A stretch of DNA of 36,219 bases, taken from contig PWSY01000047.1 of assembly GCA_003563055.1 (NCBI GenBank), positions 1 through 36,219 of the forward strand. Reading direction: 5' to 3'. This DNA is from Anaerolineaceae bacterium (GTDB lineage: Bacteria; Chloroflexota; Anaerolineae; Anaerolineales; Anaerolineaceae). The number at the start of each line of letters is the position of its first letter. Positions within the stretch are counted from its first letter, which is position 1. Of the stretch, positions 27,999 through 34,541 are shown one piece after another. Both the position numbers and the translations under genes were made by a program. The notes under the pieces were generated by a model that ran no database searches, was not told where the DNA came from, and worked only from the letters and a program-made list of their open reading frames with translations.

Positions 27999-29540
27999 CT
28001 AAAGTTGAAAAAGCAACCGAATTTCCTGGCGAATGGGTATAACCGCCACCAGCGTGCTAACGGCAATAGCCATCAAAGATAGGAATATCGCGGGAATCGA
28101 AGTTGGGATTAGAAATAGAATCAGCCCCACCCCCACAGCCGCGCCTAAGGCACTGATCCCACCTCGTAAAAATGACCCGCCCAACTGAAACCGTTCAGGC
28201 AGGCCACGGTTTAATAACAATACCAATAGCGCAGCTTGAAGGCTATAAGAAATGGAATTGGCAATGGCTATCCCACTGGAGGCCAAAGTCCCCATCAATG
28301 GAATCGCCAAGGCAATAAAGACTGCAAAACCCAAACCGGACACCATCATCGGCACATGTGGCTTTTGATTGGCAAAGAAAGAGCGAACACCTAATTCAAC
28401 GATGGCGTGCCCTAACAAACCAAGTAAAAAGCCCTGCGCGGCCCAAAGCACCAATTGGGATTCTTCTAAACCGAACCCAAAAGCAAACTGGATTAACGGC
28501 ATGCTGGTCAATGAAAGGATCACTGCAACAGGCAAAGACAGCGCGATCATCACCTTCAGGCTTCGTTCAATGGTTTTTTTAAAGGCCAGGTACTCTCCCT
28601 CTGCCAGGTGATCGGAGAGGGTTGGCAGTAAAGCCGTGGCAATGGCAGTACCAATCATTGTTTCTGGCACTTGCTGAATCCACCATCCAAAACTTAACGC
28701 AGTCACTGACCCAACCGGCAATCGTGAGGCGAGGTTGTCCTGCGCGAGAAAAATCAATTGAATAAAGACCATGCTGACGAGCCTCGGTCCCATTAACCTT
28801 AACACCCTGTGAACTCCCGAATCTTTTAAGTCGATTTTTGGAAACCATTTGAACTTAAATTTTACCAACCCCGGGATTTGAACCAGCAAATGCAAACCGG
28901 CGCCAATGATCACGCCATACACCAAACCATGGATGCCCATACCAAAGCCTGGCAGTTGGATACCACCAATTCGGTAACCCACCTGAGGTGCGAGGATCAC
29001 AGCCCCAAAAATTTTTCCACCATCATAGACCAAAGGGGCTACAGCTGGCAAAAGAAAATGTTGATTGGCCTGTAATCCTGCCATTACCAGGCCGCTGATT
29101 GAGAAAATCAGCGTTGCAATCAGGTTCAATCGCATCAGTTGAACAGCCAGGGCTTGCTGTGACGGCGTAAAACCGGGGGCAATACCTAGCTCACCACGCA
29201 CCAATGGCCCCGCTAGCAGTCCCACAATCAATGCCAGTACAGCGGTCACAACAAAGGCCAGGTTAGCCACCTGAGAAAACAACAACCACGAGGATTCCCG
29301 TCCCTCTTTTGTTCTTTTCTCTGAAAGGACAGGAATAAAGGCAATTGCCAGGGCACCGCCAGAAATCAATGCAAACAACAGGTCGGGCAGGTTATTGGCC
29401 GCATTGAAAACATCCAGCTCTGCAGACAAACCAAATTGTCGCCCAATGATAATTGTCCGAAAAACCGCCAGTAGTTTGTCAAGTCCAAAAAACACAAATA
29501 ACATCATCGACACGCGGCTCAAACGGCTGAATTTTTTCAT
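27999..29540 (-). CDS. murJ: MurJ/MviN-family lipid II flippase
   Basis: A 513-residue polytopic membrane protein of the MOP superfamily with about 14 hydrophobic helices. The N-terminus (FGLDKLLAVFRTIIIGRQFG) and the NAANNLPDLLFALISGGALAIAFIPVLSE block are diagnostic of MurJ, as are the paired-half repeats (VPETMIGTAIATALLPTLSDH). It carries lipid II across the cytoplasmic membrane for peptidoglycan assembly. The presence of MurJ with a RodZ-like protein nearby argues for a peptidoglycan-containing cell. It is the first gene of a two-gene minus-strand unit and diverges from the RNA-modification operon. Confidence 0.92.
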   Translation of the reverse strand: MKKFSRLSRVSMMLFVFFGLDKLLAVFRTIIIGRQFGLSAELDVFNAANNLPDLLFALISGGALAIAFIPVLSEKRTKEGRESSWLLFSQVANLAFVVTAVLALIVGLLAGPLVRGELGIAPGFTPSQQALAVQLMRLNLIATLIFSISGLVMAGLQANQHFLLPAVAPLVYDGGKIFGAVILAPQVGYRIGGIQLPGFGMGIHGLVYGVIIGAGLHLLVQIPGLVKFKFKWFPKIDLKDSGVHRVLRLMGPRLVSMVFIQLIFLAQDNLASRLPVGSVTALSFGWWIQQVPETMIGTAIATALLPTLSDHLAEGEYLAFKKTIERSLKVMIALSLPVAVILSLTSMPLIQFAFGFGLEESQLVLWAAQGFLLGLLGHAIVELGVRSFFANQKPHVPMMVSGLGFAVFIALAIPLMGTLASSGIAIANSISYSLQAALLVLLLNRGLPERFQLGGSFLRGGISALGAAVGVGLILFLIPTSIPAIFLSLMAIAVSTLVAVIPIRQEIRLLFQL

Positions 29541-29576
29541 GGTGTTCCAATCCTGCAGTAGTGGTGCATTTTCCTG

Positions 29577-29605
29577 ATTATGCCATAAACCGCATAGACT
29601 GACCA
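29577..29605 (-). promoter_or_regulatory. Promoter of murJ
   Basis: On the minus strand TGGTCA (29600-29605), 17 bases, then CATAAT (29577-29582) with a TGG extension. The predicted start lies about 30 bases before the murJ ATG. Confidence 0.5.
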
Positions 29606-29643
29606 GTGAAAGATAGCGTCACTTTCCCATAGAGGGTCAGGGA

Positions 29644-29652
29644 TGTTACAAT
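29644..29652 (+). promoter_or_regulatory. Extended -10 promoter of the RNA-modification operon; start at or next to the ATG
   Basis: TGT-TACAAT, -10 hexamer at 29647-29652, with a poor -35. Only seven bases separate it from the ATG at 29660, so the transcription start should fall on or beside that A. No Shine-Dalgarno is present in the usual window, consistent with a leaderless message. Confidence 0.55.
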
Positions 29653-29659
29653 TAAACCA

Positions 29660-30361
29660 ATGCAGAAACAAACACCAGCTGGAAAACTCTACATTGTTGC
29701 CACCCCCATCGGCAACCCAAAGGACATCACACTGCGCGCACTGGATATCCTGAAAAATGTCGACGGAGTCATCTGCGAGGAATACCGCCAGGGCAACCGG
29801 CTGTTAAACAAGCTGGGCCTTGAAAAAGAGCTGATTCCCCTCAACGAACACAACGAAGACCAGGAAGCACATCATATCATCACACGTATGGCTGATGGAG
29901 AAACCCTGGCGTTGATCTCCGATGCCGGCACACCCGTTTTTGCTGACCCAGGACAGCGCCTATTAGAACTGGCCTACCAGATGAATATCCCTGTCTCCCC
30001 GATACCTGGGCCAGCTTCCTTAATGGCAGCTTTATCCTTATGCGATTTCTCGATCGACCGTTTTCTATTCGCTGGCTTTCCACCCAGGAAGACCGAACAT
30101 AGGTTGGGTTTCTTACGTAAGTTATCCCACGAATCAGTCCCTGTCGTCCTAATGGATACACCCTATCGGCTGACCAAATTACTGACTGAAGCAGAGTCCG
30201 TATTTGGCAAAAACCAGGACATCCTGCTGGCCTGTGATTTAACTCAAAAAAAAGAAGCGGTCTTCAGAGGCAAAGTGCGAGACATCCTACCCGCCATTTC
30301 CGGTCAAAAACGCGAGTTCATTCTAATCGTTAACCTGAACAAACATCGACAGGAGCGTTGA
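29660..30361 (+). CDS. RsmI-like 16S rRNA (cytidine-2'-O)-methyltransferase, divergent and short
   Basis: A 233-residue SAM-dependent enzyme of the tetrapyrrole-methylase fold. RsmI adds the 2'-O-methyl group at C1402 of 16S rRNA. Motifs seen: IVATPIGNPKDITLRALDIL (12-31), ALISDAGTPVFADPGQ (84-99), PIPGPASLMAAL (115-125) and FAGFPPRK (137-144). Deviations: the usual EDTR is EEYR (40-43), the ESPHR motif is DTPYR (166-170), and the C-terminal extension of typical 280-residue RsmI is missing. It could be the cell's only RsmI or a paralogue with changed target. First gene of a five-gene operon; SD-less start; TGT-like gene follows after one base. Confidence 0.82.
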   Translation: MQKQTPAGKLYIVATPIGNPKDITLRALDILKNVDGVICEEYRQGNRLLNKLGLEKELIPLNEHNEDQEAHHIITRMADGETLALISDAGTPVFADPGQRLLELAYQMNIPVSPIPGPASLMAALSLCDFSIDRFLFAGFPPRKTEHRLGFLRKLSHESVPVVLMDTPYRLTKLLTEAESVFGKNQDILLACDLTQKKEAVFRGKVRDILPAISGQKREFILIVNLNKHRQER

Positions 30362-30362
30362 C

Positions 30363-31457
30363 ATGGTAATGGGCCAGTTATTCATTCGCGACAGAACACT
30401 CCATCTGCCGACCTTTTTGCCAGATGCGACATCCGGTTATGTTCGGGCAGTTGATTCCCGAGACCTGGAAGGGGTCGGTATTCAAGCTGTCGTGATGAAC
30501 ACCTTCCACCTGATGCAAAAACCAGGCTCTAGCACCATACAGGCATTCAAAGGTTTGCACCGCTTTGCTGGTTGGCCCAACCTAATTATTACGGATTCGG
30601 GTGGCTTTCAGGCCTATTCACTCATCCACCAGTCAGAGAAATTTGGCACAATCACCGACAGAGGAATTATCTTCCGACCAGAAGGTAGAGATCGGAAGGT
30701 TATCCTTACGCCGGAAAAGAGCATCCAGTTACAAATCAGCTTTGACAGTGATGTGGTTATTTGCCTGGATGACTGCACACACATCGATGCACCCAGGGCA
30801 ATTCAAGAACAATCTGTGAAACGCACTATCGACTGGGCTCAGCGTTGTAAAACCGAATACCTGCATCAAATTGAACAACGCCAGATTGAAGAGAGTGCCC
30901 GCCCATTAATATTTGCTGTGATACAGGGCGGCGGCATTCATGATTTCCGAAAAAAATGTGCTGAGGCTTTGCTCGAGATCGGCTTTGATGGGTTTGGCTA
31001 TGGCGGTTGGCCCCTGGATGGAGACGGTAATTTGTTGGAGGATATGATAACCCTGACGAGGGCATTGGTGCCTGATAAATACCCCATGCATGCCCTGGGA
31101 ATTGGCCACCCGATCAATCTGATGAAAACTTATCGTCGTGGTTATGACATTTTTGATTGTGCACTCCCGACTCGGGATGCCCGCCATGGCCGATTGATGC
31201 GATTTACTTGTCCAACCAACACGCGACTGACGGGCAGTGATTGGATGGAGTATGTTTACATCCAGGATAAGAAATACATCAAAGATCAACGGGGAATATC
31301 GGAATTTTGTGATTGCCCTGTTTGCGATCATTACAGCATTGGCTATTTACATCATCTTTTTAAGACTGGTGACTGGCTCTACAAACGGCTGGCAACCTTA
31401 CATAACCTCCGCTTTATGACCCAACTGACAGAACGGTTACCCAATAATGACGTATGA
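30363..31457 (+). CDS. tRNA-guanine transglycosylase-like protein, divergent substrate loop
   Basis: A 364-residue TIM-barrel transglycosylase of the TGT family, which swaps guanine for a 7-deazaguanine in RNA. Conserved: MNTFHLMQKPG, ITDSGGFQ (Asp78), FDCALPTR (Asp265, aligning with the catalytic nucleophile) and the zinc site Cys316, Cys318, Cys321 with His347, spaced exactly as in Zymomonas TGT. Changed: the GGLAVGE loop that reads the incoming base is GGWPLDG (214-220). So catalysis looks intact while base choice may differ. The start has AGGAG seven bases upstream. Its end overlaps the first Arm-like gene by 11 bases. It may be the ordinary Q enzyme of this lineage or act on another RNA; its neighbours are rRNA enzymes. 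Confidence 0.85.
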   Translation: MVMGQLFIRDRTLHLPTFLPDATSGYVRAVDSRDLEGVGIQAVVMNTFHLMQKPGSSTIQAFKGLHRFAGWPNLIITDSGGFQAYSLIHQSEKFGTITDRGIIFRPEGRDRKVILTPEKSIQLQISFDSDVVICLDDCTHIDAPRAIQEQSVKRTIDWAQRCKTEYLHQIEQRQIEESARPLIFAVIQGGGIHDFRKKCAEALLEIGFDGFGYGGWPLDGDGNLLEDMITLTRALVPDKYPMHALGIGHPINLMKTYRRGYDIFDCALPTRDARHGRLMRFTCPTNTRLTGSDWMEYVYIQDKKYIKDQRGISEFCDCPVCDHYSIGYLHHLFKTGDWLYKRLATLHNLRFMTQLTERLPNNDV

Positions 31458-32256
31458 AACCCAACTGGCGGCACTTGTCAGAAAGGTTAGCGCCAACAAG
31501 AAATACCACGCCATTTCCCCTGACCTGGTTACAAGACTCAGCAAAGAAGCACTCAGTCAGGGCCTATCGGGGAAGTTGGCGCTAAAGACAGTACGCAAGA
31601 AATTGCACCAGGTGGGCGGTGCTTATTTTCGGCGCCAAATCAATTACCAGAGTGCCACCAACCAACTGGAGATGCTGCCAGCAGACATTAAATCCAGTGC
31701 CATAAAAGCATTTTGCATCAAACACATGCAGACCCATGCATCGACAGCGGAACGCCTGCCGATCCTGGAAACTTTTTATCACACCTGCCTTGAAGCAATC
31801 GCACCCATCACCAGCGTTCTCGACCTGGCCTGCGGACTAAACCCCCTGGCAATACCCTGGATGCCGCTGTCAGACATCATGACTTATCAATCCTGTGACA
31901 TTTACCGCGACATGATGTCATTCATCCAATCCTTTTTCCAGCATGTCAACGTCGACGGGCATGCGCAGACCTGTGATGTGATTGGAGACCTTCCAAAGAG
32001 CAAAGCACAAATCGCCTTTCTGCTCAAATCAATTCCCTGTCTCGAACAAATTCAAGCTGCCATTGGTCCCCAGCTGCTGACAGAAATAGAAGCAGATCAT
32101 ATCCTGGTCTCATTCCCGGTGCGGAGCTTAGGCGGCCGCCAAAAAGGGATGTTGGATTTCTACAGGGATCATTTCTGCCAATTGACCTCTGGCACCCCAT
32201 GGACTATCCAGGAGTTCATTTTCGACACTGAACTGGCATTCTTGGTAAGCAAATGA
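31447..32256 (+). CDS. Arm/FmrO-family 16S rRNA (guanine1405-N7)-methyltransferase homologue
   Basis: A 269-residue protein that carries the full set of Arm-family signatures: an N-terminal helical domain (about 1-95, KTVRKKLHQVGGAYF), HASTAERL (97-104), the SAM-binding DLACGLNPLAIPWM (126-139), LLKSIPCLEQ (192-201) and SFPVRSLGGRQKGM (222-235). Known members (RmtB, Sgm, FmrO) methylate N7 of G1405 in helix 44 and protect ribosomes against 4,6-disubstituted aminoglycosides. Here the gene lies in a housekeeping-looking RNA-modification operon, with no antibiotic-production or mobile genes in view. It overlaps the TGT-like gene by 11 bases and the second Arm-like gene by four. Target G1405 is inferred, not shown. 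Confidence 0.88.
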   Translation: MTYETQLAALVRKVSANKKYHAISPDLVTRLSKEALSQGLSGKLALKTVRKKLHQVGGAYFRRQINYQSATNQLEMLPADIKSSAIKAFCIKHMQTHASTAERLPILETFYHTCLEAIAPITSVLDLACGLNPLAIPWMPLSDIMTYQSCDIYRDMMSFIQSFFQHVNVDGHAQTCDVIGDLPKSKAQIAFLLKSIPCLEQIQAAIGPQLLTEIEADHILVSFPVRSLGGRQKGMLDFYRDHFCQLTSGTPWTIQEFIFDTELAFLVSK

Positions 32257-33071
32257 GTAAAAAACCGATCGACACCAAGGAATTTGCTACCAAAATACTC
32301 AATTCGAAGAAATACCGTCACCTGGGTCTGAATCGGTCTACAATTAACGATCTTGTCCACCGTGAAGCACAAATCCAATCATCAGACAAAGCCATATTTA
32401 AAACTGTCCGGCGGAAACTGCACAATATCGTGGCACCATATCTGGGTGAACCAAATTACGCAAGTCTTCTTGAAAGACTATCTGAAATCCCGGAAACATC
32501 GCCCCAGTCAGAACAAATCCTGTCTTTTTGTCTTGATGTTCTTTCAGAACATGCCTCAACAGCAGAGCGAATCCCTCATATGAGCGCATTCTATGAACAA
32601 CTCTTTCAAAGAACCGGTAAGCCTGAGAGGCTGATGGACCTTGCTTGTGGTCTCCACCCACTTTCCTTCCCCTGGATGGGTCTGCCGATTACTGTAAAAT
32701 ATCATGCTTACGATATCATCCAGGTACGCATCGATTTCATCAACCATTTCTTCCAGAAATTGGGCCTGGCACCTTACGCAGAAAATCGGGATATCCTCGT
32801 AGATCCACCTGATTACCATGCCGACCTGGGCATTTTTTTTAAAGAAGCCCATCGCTTCGAAAAGAGGCAGCCAGGTTGTAACCGATCCTTTTGGGAGCGC
32901 TTAAATGTTGACACACTGGCTGTTTCACTCCCTGCTCACGATCTGTCAAACACTCACAGCCTCATAGAGCCCCACCGCAGGTTGATAGAGAATAATCTGC
33001 CTGGTCATAGCACGGTCACAGAGCTGTTAATTGAGAATGAAATTGTCTTTTTGATTGATCACCCGGGTTAA
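32253..33071 (+). CDS. Second, diverged Arm-family rRNA methyltransferase homologue
   Basis: A 272-residue tandem paralogue of the preceding gene. The N-terminal half aligns well: KTVRRKLHNIVAPYL, HASTAERIP (100-108) and the SAM motif DLACGLHPLSFPWM (129-142, Asn to His in the loop). The C-terminal half has lost the family's catalytic-side motifs: LLKSIPCLEQ becomes FFKEAHRFEKRQ (195-206) and SFPVRSLGGRQKGM becomes SLPAHDLSNTHSLI (225-238). The frame is intact and codon use looks normal, so it is not a fresh pseudogene. It may have a different target base, be an inactive partner of the first protein, or bind without methylating. ATGA overlap with the first gene suggests equal expression. Confidence 0.8.
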   Translation: MSKKPIDTKEFATKILNSKKYRHLGLNRSTINDLVHREAQIQSSDKAIFKTVRRKLHNIVAPYLGEPNYASLLERLSEIPETSPQSEQILSFCLDVLSEHASTAERIPHMSAFYEQLFQRTGKPERLMDLACGLHPLSFPWMGLPITVKYHAYDIIQVRIDFINHFFQKLGLAPYAENRDILVDPPDYHADLGIFFKEAHRFEKRQPGCNRSFWERLNVDTLAVSLPAHDLSNTHSLIEPHRRLIENNLPGHSTVTELLIENEIVFLIDHPG

Positions 33072-33077
33072 ATATCT

Positions 33078-34541
33078 ATGAGTAAAAATACTGAATCCAG
33101 GCTACACGAAAGCATTATGCGATTCTCCGAAATCCTGTCACCTCAAGAGATCAGGGAAATTATTGCCATCCAGGATCAGCCTTTGCCCACTGGCATACGC
33201 ATTAACCCCCTGAAATCGGATCCACACCTGAAGATCAAAGATTTGGCGTCTCGCTACGGCTGGTGTGTCCAATCTCTACCCTACTGTGAGAATGGCTGGA
33301 CAATTCAACAATCAATCGTCTCCCCCGGGTTAACCATAGAGCACCGCATGGGTCAGTATTATATCCAGGATGCGGCCTCGATGGTTCCGGTAAGCTTATT
33401 TAATTTAGAAACGCCACAACCACTGGTTTTAGATTTAGCAGCATCCCCTGGGGGTAAAACCACACATCTGATCGACAGGACAAATGACCGGGGATTTATC
33501 CTAGCCAATGATGCCAGCAAAGGGCGTATCCCGGCTTTGCGGTCTGTGCTCGTCAACTGGGGAGCAGCAAACACTATTGTGACCAATTTTCCCGGCGAAA
33601 AGTTCGGTGCCTGGTACCCTGAGACCTTCGACCTGGTCTTGCTGGATGCACCCTGCAGCATGGAAAACCTGCGGCCAGCCCCCAATCACCCTTTGCGAGA
33701 GACAACACAAACTGAGCGATCAAGATTGCAGGAACGCCAGATAAACCTTCTCATCAGTGGGTTACAAGCGCTAAAAATCGGTGGGCAAATCGTCTATGCC
33801 ACCTGCTCTCTGGCGCCAGAAGAAGATGAGGCAGTAATCGACACCACTATTCAAAAATTCCCCGATGCATTAAAAATACTGGATGTGTCCGAAAAAGTTC
33901 CCAATGGGATACCCGGGTTGGCAGAATTTAATCATCAGACCTTCCATAAAGACCTGGCTGGCAGCTTACGGCTGTGGCCCCACCTGACAGGTATGTCCGG
34001 GTTCTTTTGCGCCCTGATGCAAAAAACAGCTCCTGTAAAGGTCCATACGGAACCCGCACCCAGCCGGGACTTTTCCAGGACAGATTTGGGAAAGGTCTCT
34101 GAAGAACTTCAAAATGAAATCTTTGAGTTTATTCTATTGACCTATGGTTTTGAGTTGTTAAAGATAACCACAGACCAAAACCTCGCATTATTCCAAAGAC
34201 ACGATCAGCTCTTTTTAATTCCAAAACGGTACCTGGAACATTTCATCAACCTGCCATATACATGGATTGGTTTGTCAATCGGTCATTGGAACGATCAGAT
34301 CTTGACCCCCTCCCATGAGTTTATCAGTCGTTTCGGGCACCTGTTCACAAGAGGAATAATCCAGATCGACCACGACCTGATTGCACAATGGTGCAGTGGA
34401 CGGGATATTCGCCACCCTGAAACAGACCTGCAACCTGTTGGTCAATATTTGCTGGTCACGGATAAATCGAGGCGAAATCTCGGTTTAGGGAAACTACTAT
34501 CAAAACGGCTCAGGAATATGCTCCCCCGGCAATCAATTTAA
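33078..34541 (+). CDS. RsmF/YebU-like NOL1/NOP2/Sun-family rRNA m5C methyltransferase
   Basis: A 487-residue RNA m5C methyltransferase. Motifs: GQYYIQDAASMVP (92-104), SAM-binding LDLAASPGGKTTHL (118-131), motif IV DAPCSMENL (190-198, Cys193) and motif VI YATCSLAPEEDE (240-251, catalytic Cys243). A C-terminal region of about 150 residues ends in GLGKLLSKRLRNMLPR, like the PUA-type end of RsmF. There is no NusB-like N-terminal domain, which argues against RsmB. E. coli RsmF makes m5C1407 in helix 44. The usual CSGEG after motif IV is CSMEN. Last gene of the operon, six bases behind the second Arm-like gene, tail-overlapping the acyltransferase gene by nine bases. Confidence 0.87.
   Translation: MSKNTESRLHESIMRFSEILSPQEIREIIAIQDQPLPTGIRINPLKSDPHLKIKDLASRYGWCVQSLPYCENGWTIQQSIVSPGLTIEHRMGQYYIQDAASMVPVSLFNLETPQPLVLDLAASPGGKTTHLIDRTNDRGFILANDASKGRIPALRSVLVNWGAANTIVTNFPGEKFGAWYPETFDLVLLDAPCSMENLRPAPNHPLRETTQTERSRLQERQINLLISGLQALKIGGQIVYATCSLAPEEDEAVIDTTIQKFPDALKILDVSEKVPNGIPGLAEFNHQTFHKDLAGSLRLWPHLTGMSGFFCALMQKTAPVKVHTEPAPSRDFSRTDLGKVSEELQNEIFEFILLTYGFELLKITTDQNLALFQRHDQLFLIPKRYLEHFINLPYTWIGLSIGHWNDQILTPSHEFISRFGHLFTRGIIQIDHDLIAQWCSGRDIRHPETDLQPVGQYLLVTDKSRRNLGLGKLLSKRLRNMLPRQSI

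Follow-up and report, generated by a model that had tools for sequence, protein, structure and literature searches.

Several enzymes modify the decoding site in helix 44 (h44) of bacterial 16S rRNA: RsmI is responsible for Cm1402, RsmH for m4C1402, RsmF for m5C1407 and RsmE for m3U1498, and the Arm enzymes act at G1405. Among the paralogues of the tRNA-guanine transglycosylases (TGTs), DpdA places 7-deazaguanines into DNA, and is thus a precedent for a TGT paralogue that has left tRNA. In PMC12406665, RsmF, RsmI, RsmH and RsmE are presented as the housekeeping enzymes around G1405/A1408, Sgm and RmtC are stated to hinder RsmF, and ArmA to hinder RsmI. The window analysed here, the whole stretch of 36,219 nucleotides of contig PWSY01000047.1 from an Anaerolineaceae bacterium (assembly GCA_003563055.1), contains a plus-strand operon in which relatives of these enzymes are encoded one after another. 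Its genes specify an RsmI-like 2'-O-methyltransferase (29660-30361, 233 aa), a paralogue of tRNA-guanine transglycosylase (30363-31457, 364 aa), two FmrO-family methyltransferases, of which the ArmA-type one (31447-32256, 269 aa) is the predicted 16S G1405 N7 enzyme and the ArmB-type one (32253-33071, 272 aa) its paralogue, and an RsmF-like m5C methyltransferase (33078-34541, 487 aa).

The 30363-31457 gene gives its name here to a TGT-like protein type, TGTL, and Arm is used for FmrO-family proteins; families were called by Pfam and NCBIfam searches with curated cut-offs. An earlier note on this DNA had described five plus-strand genes for RsmI-, TGT-, Arm-, Arm- and RsmF-like proteins with gaps of -11 to +6 bases; the same open reading frames (ORFs) have been recovered with Pfam and NCBIfam matches, the intergenic gaps being, in order, +1, -11, -4 and +6 bases. 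On balance, we moderately favour the reading, drawn from sequence comparison, that this operon is a version of a conserved h44 module in which TGTL would swap a guanine in 16S rRNA in an Arm-dependent manner. To our knowledge, such an exchange would be the first base exchange in rRNA, and no description of a TGT-Arm module was found in the literature covered (open-licence articles, titles and abstract openings).

TGTL and Arm across genomes

Across the class to which the window belongs (Anaerolineae), 298 genomes were surveyed for the co-occurrence of both protein types, using FmrO and TGTL-alignment profile searches. FmrO was matched in 75 of these genomes (and in 0 of 14 control genomes), and TGTL in 48, with 438-693 bits among the matches listed, the next match having 294 bits. 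All 48 TGTL genomes fall within the 75 FmrO genomes among the matches listed (Fisher p 2e-36, uncorrected for kinship), and in the 223 FmrO-less genomes no TGTL appears among the matches listed. In the class, TGTL depends on Arm, not the reverse, with a reserve about the profile that is explained below. In one locus (L065, 5854-7015, plus strand) TGTL is present in two pieces, which reflects either a broken gene or a sequencing error; this genome retains ArmA and RsmI.

Scanning the genome collection for a TGTL sequence pattern gave at least 117 loci. An Arm ORF lies within 400 bases and on the same strand as TGTL in 90 of the 117 loci listed; nine have none, and 18 were left uncalled, the stretch ending too near TGTL. 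RsmI is found within 2.5 kb and on the same strand in 50 of the 117. Among the nine Arm-less loci, four (L165, L182, L193 and L222) belong to candidate-phyla or Patescibacteria records, in another (L134) an Arm ORF lies at a distance of about 1 kb, and L214 comes from a genome with FmrO elsewhere; two of the uncalled loci (L150 and L173) come from genomes without any FmrO match. Starting from Arm, 80 Arm-containing class loci from 73 of the 75 FmrO genomes were collected (the window's own genome and G225 are left out of this set); the run that holds Arm includes TGTL in 38 of them and RsmI in 23. The two counts are not independent, since the 117 loci and the 80 share some genomes.

The full RsmI-TGTL-ArmA-ArmB-RsmF run recurs at five other places (L033, L034, L201, L226 and L037, the last being the same place as L135), and shorter versions of it at many more loci. 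Taking the phylum as labelled in the records, TGTL stands beside Arm in Chloroflexota, Bacillota, Armatimonadota, Eisenbacteria, Latescibacterota, Zixibacteria, Hydrogenedentes, Pseudomonadota, Aminicenantes, Acidobacteriota, Chlorobiota and WWE3, although most loci come from metagenome bins and single phylum cases may therefore be misassigned. Isolates with a name also carry the pair: Bellilinea caldifistulae (L136), Thermogemmatispora (L142, L200 and L227) and Dictyobacter (L160 and L203). In a Bacteroidia locus (L154) RsmI adjoins TGTL, and the Arm genes are within a few kb, non-adjacent. The earlier note would have regarded its interpretation as refuted by a gene order confined to this genome; with the whole run present elsewhere and its core, by record title, in eleven other phyla, the order is not so confined. 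The search of Anaerolineae for the five-gene order that it suggested was also run: the whole order recurs, and the TGTL-Arm core extends across the class. A chance or lineage-only gene order was rejected in view of the cross-phylum recurrence and of the co-occurrence within the class.

Some variants of the module deserve separate mention. In L333 (6506-8512, plus strand) and L334 (4280-6280, minus strand), a third and much more divergent TGT-like gene (about 167 bits) stands directly before an FmrO-like gene with a weak match (44-48 bits), and the genomes concerned, from Aminicenantes and Acidobacteriota, also carry the ordinary module. In Bellilinea caldifistulae (L035, 9205-10963, plus strand), a histidine kinase and a LuxR-type response regulator are encoded between ArmA and ArmB, a pair that possibly regulates the operon.

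Other decoding-site enzymes are also gathered around this core. When the remaining ORFs up to 4.5 kb from TGTL were clustered without supervision, the two most recurrent clusters occurred in 16 and ten, respectively, of the 117 loci listed; Pfam identified the representative of the first as a protein that combines TrpS and RsmH domains, and that of the second as RsmE. When the 197 loci of both sets were searched directly, RsmH was found in 21, always on the same strand and within 2 kb, and RsmE in 20, within about 4 kb (six on the same strand and 14 on the opposite one); in L092, L102 and L105, RsmE directly adjoins an ArmB-type gene in a stretch without TGTL. The remaining recurrent clusters include a MiaB-type protein (seven loci), a queuosine-precursor transporter and a sensor kinase; one resembles by eye the MurJ gene of the window, and several are unannotated. 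The families of the housekeeping enzymes RsmI, RsmH, RsmF and RsmE are all matched here, but gathered around a TGT-Arm core. The coordinated action at the h44 decoding centre proposed in the earlier note gains support from the TGTL-Arm recurrence together with these RsmI, RsmH, RsmF and RsmE neighbours.

Two arrangements were observed in passing. In L180 (459-2516, plus strand) a single frame of 685 residues, located upstream of TGTL, joins tryptophanyl-tRNA synthetase and RsmH (MraW) domains. In a congener of the window's organism (L033, 12757-14954), a region a few kb downstream of the operon groups RsmE with a queuosine-precursor transporter and the higher-scoring RsmI.

Proteins of the operon and flanking genes

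TGTL of the window matches the TGT domain PF01702 with 299.8 bits and TIGR00430 with 293.6, below the cut-off of 306.75; the TGTL of Anaerobacterium chartisolvens reaches 340.6 bits with the latter model, over the cut-off. With canonical Tgt it shares the fold, as indicated by an AlphaFold model (pLDDT 86, 20-row alignment) whose best match in the PDB is the Tgt structure 6fmn (TM 0.85), the two catalytic aspartates (E. coli D89/D264, equivalent to D78/D265), the pocket residues D136, Q188 and G215, and the zinc site (C302, C304, C307 and H333, equivalent to C316, C318, C321 and H347); R270 and R273 of the E. coli enzyme also have their equivalents. It differs from canonical Tgt in its place in the tree, in its GGWPLD loop and in its linkage to Arm and h44 methyltransferases. 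This specificity loop, which faces the 7-edge of the base, reads GGWPLDG in the window's protein versus GGL(S/A)VGE in most canonical enzymes. In 38 readable sequences out of 40 Arm-linked TGTLs picked independently of the loop motif, this position was occupied by Trp-Pro in 36, Tyr-Pro in one and Phe-Pro in one; canonical TGTs have GG(L/F)(S/A)xGE in 21 of 24, the other three being unread. For the TGTs of Hyphomicrobiales, PMC11570991 places the GGLAVGE loop close to the base.

In a tree of 68 rows, in which the TGTL rows are a chosen subset of those available, the 24 canonical TGTs make up one side of a 100/100 branch of length 1.37, and the other side consists of 39 TGTL rows and five rows from Patescibacteria genomes; the TGTL proteins of Aminicenantes and Acidobacteriota are almost identical. 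That TGTL could be the ordinary Tgt of its genome was rejected, since the canonical copy is located on contig C170 (520 versus 299 bits). As regards DpdA, no DNA-modification genes occur among the annotated neighbour clusters of TGTL, some clusters being unannotated. A virus origin of TGTL was also rejected, as a search limited to its sequence pattern gave 0 matches in viral contigs.

The ArmA-type protein scores 165.1 bits with FmrO and 215.7 with the generic Rmt model NF000466, and matches the Sgm structure with E 8.6e-38. Like the Arm/Rmt enzymes that form m7G1405 (Sgm, RmtB and RmtC), it has the FmrO domain, the S-adenosylmethionine (SAM) motif, the K-loop and the SLGGRxxGM motif, retaining K194 and the sequence SLGGRQKGM; equivalents of Sgm K199 and R236 are also present. 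It differs from these enzymes in that it is below the cut-off of the generic Rmt model (250) and in that its operon also encodes TGTL and relatives of the housekeeping enzymes of h44. The ArmB-type protein (FmrO, 111.2 bits; nearest structure, Sgm) conserves the SAM motif and the K-loop in the alignment and departs from Arm/Rmt enzymes by the lack of SLGGRxxGM. The distinction is general: in two locus sets, a motif of this kind was found in 57 of 72 and 80 of 92 ArmA-type ORFs scored, and in 0 of 18 and 0 of 25 ArmB-type ones. Judged by their sequences, the two Arm-like proteins are not equivalent, which corrects the earlier note on this point.

The RsmI-like product (29660-30361) contains a TP_methylase domain, exceeds the cut-off of the RsmI model TIGR00096 (176.6 versus 167.9 bits), and has RsmI 5hw4 as its nearest solved structure (E 7e-42). 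A second RsmI of the same genome (C173:969-1625) outscores it with 220.5 bits, so the operon gene is a second, lower-scoring copy, both in this genome and in the one congener searched. By contrast, in 15 of 24 genomes searched the sole TIGR00096 match adjoins TGTL and/or Arm (TGTL beside RsmI in 13; Arm alone in two, G068 and G115), and therefore the link to the module involves there the real C1402 enzyme; in G236, G306 and G308 the sole match is elsewhere, and six of the 24 genomes have two matches. The RsmF-like product (33078-34541) surpasses the cut-offs of RsmB/F PF01189 (121.9 bits) and of the RsmF N-terminal domain PF17125 (45.6 bits), its score for PF13636, the PUA-like domain of the C terminus, stays below the cut-off, and it reaches 271.5 bits with the RsmF equivalog NF008898, below the cut-off of 588; the nearest solved structure is YebU (E 2.6e-58). 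It is the only strong RsmB/F match in the window's genome, and a strong match was obtained in six of ten genomes searched, adjoining Arm in all six.

Upstream of the operon is a divergent MurJ-family gene on the minus strand (27999-29540). The gap of 119 bases between them (29541-29659, with no strand specified) is the probable promoter region, judging from its position rather than from a promoter scan. Downstream, an acyltransferase gene and a diacylglycerol-kinase-type gene are located on the minus strand.

Queuosine genes, target sequence and an aminoglycoside-like context

Besides TGTL, a strong canonical TGT was found in 22 of 30 pattern-selected TGTL genomes, and in one more in two pieces; seven have TGTL only. 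A QueA match is lacking in six of 43 genomes, a Chloroflexus sp. metagenome-assembled genome (MAG) and five Patescibacteria, all of them without canonical TGT; the Chloroflexus MAG, in which TGTL and Arm are present, gave no match to canonical TGT, QueA, QueC or the precursor transporter. Strong QueC is present in 13 of the 43 genomes and absent from the window's own, and a requirement for de novo supply of preQ0 was rejected on this count. The queuosine-precursor transporter (PF02592) is encoded near the module in ten of the 197 loci (L037 and L135 being the same place) and was found in 26 of 50 genomes; imported precursor as a general rule is therefore not supported. Many genomes in these surveys are incomplete bins. 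Taking into account that QueA, QueC and the transporter are patchy across TGTL genomes, the incoming base of TGTL is not indicated by them. As a separate observation, in the class families f35, f41 and f45 the canonical TGT search gives at least two weaker matches per genome in most listed members (best E about 1e-92 to 1e-101), as would be expected of a split gene or of one with an insertion.

A 16S match was obtained in 18 of 40 genomes, of which 17 were readable (that of G322 is a partial match). Positions 1401-1408 read GCCCGUCA, with AAGUCGUAACAAGG on the opposite strand, in all 17, ten of them with TGTL, and a sequence change at the target was consequently rejected.

One locus has a different setting. 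In Anaerobacterium chartisolvens DSM 27016 (L336-L338), TGTL and Arm are flanked by a D-Ala ligase-like gene on one side and by genes for two DegT-type aminotransferases on the other. The same contig also encodes glycosyltransferases, radical SAM and SPASM proteins and a member of the DHQ-synthase family (aroB, 260.6 bits, under the cut-off of 305), with LuxC and LuxE relatives nearby. We take this gene set to resemble a 2-deoxystreptamine aminoglycoside cluster, a likeness for which no marker gene is proven. The Arm protein scores best with the ArmB profile, yet reaches 227 bits with the generic Rmt model. Here the TGTL-Arm pair would serve for self-protection.

Proposed mechanism and alternative explanations

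According to family membership, the ArmA-type enzyme would make m7G1405, the RsmI-like enzyme would methylate the 2'-OH of C1402, and the RsmF-like enzyme would form m5C1407. TGTL, having departed from the tRNA-queuosine pathway, would probably swap a guanine in the same 16S patch. Its likeliest target would be either G1405, an N7-methylated base being a better leaving group, or a neighbour such as G1401, G1494 or G1497; ArmB could be a second methyltransferase of the h44 patch or a non-catalytic partner. Joint production of these enzymes could settle the known interference of Arm with RsmF and RsmI, and the outcome would be a retuned decoding and, probably, intrinsic aminoglycoside insensitivity. 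In its most specific form, Arm would methylate N7 of G1405 first and TGTL, with an aromatic-proline pair in its pocket at the 7-edge, would then put another base in its place, a two-step, queuosine-independent hypermodification of the decoding centre in many phyla; so precise a sequence of events is regarded as unlikely.

Several results weigh against the exchange of a guanine in 16S rRNA. No TGTL was found among the matches listed in 27 of the 75 FmrO genomes of the class, and therefore the dependence is not reversed. Besides, Arm-linked TGTLs were the basis of the TGTL profile, no more than six candidates were scored per genome and matches below about 249 bits are unlisted, so TGTL fragments or divergent members could be missed. 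Four Patescibacteria (G323-G326) have a protein of the TGTL clade and no FmrO match, which means that in those genomes it has an Arm-free role. The precursor transporter, which could supply an incoming 7-deazaguanine, was not found in 24 of 50 genomes, including the window's own (75% complete), and the unchanged 1401-1408 sequence implies that the target itself gives no hint.

It could also be that the methyltransferases act on h44 and TGTL acts on tRNA, at another position, in another tRNA or with another incoming base, the operon being a translation-fidelity gene set. All characterised RNA-acting TGTs known to us act on tRNA; moreover, the conserved catalytic aspartates, zinc site and R270/R273 equivalents, and the transporters near the module, agree with this explanation. 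It is nevertheless doubtful, because canonical TGT is additionally present in most of the TGTL genomes searched (22 of 30), no Arm-free TGTL appears among the matches listed for the 298 class genomes, and the identified RNA-modification neighbours are mostly 16S h44 enzymes, the MiaB-type protein being the exception. The Arm family itself and the context in A. chartisolvens evoke, in turn, an aminoglycoside self-protection cassette derived from antibiotic producers, with TGTL and ArmB protecting where m7G1405 fails. Such a context was seen in one locus, without a systematic search, and many loci adjoin the housekeeping genes RsmH, RsmI or RsmE, the linked RsmI being often the sole copy, which makes this origin quite improbable for the module; it overlaps with base exchange in h44 and does not exclude it.

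That TGTL depends on Arm in the class, that an aromatic residue lies at the 7-edge of the base and that some TGTL genomes lack queuosine genes would also fit an eraser that swaps the Arm-made m7G back to guanine, rendering the mark reversible. However, making writer and eraser constitutively from one operon would be pointless unless they were regulated, so a role of this kind seems very improbable. Finally, all five genes belong to known families and might be ordinary housekeeping genes placed together with no functional link, an explanation that is scarcely credible given that it is contradicted by the recurrence across phyla and by the strict TGTL-Arm co-occurrence.

Few RNA sites are as conserved as the decoding centre, to which aminoglycosides bind. 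The wide spread of a set of genes built around it, one of them from a transglycosylase clade not yet characterised, predicts a hitherto undescribed modification of 16S rRNA. If the exchange of a guanine by TGTL is true, m7G1405 chemistry would also be part of native ribosome biology, and rRNA base exchange would constitute a categorically new kind of modification.

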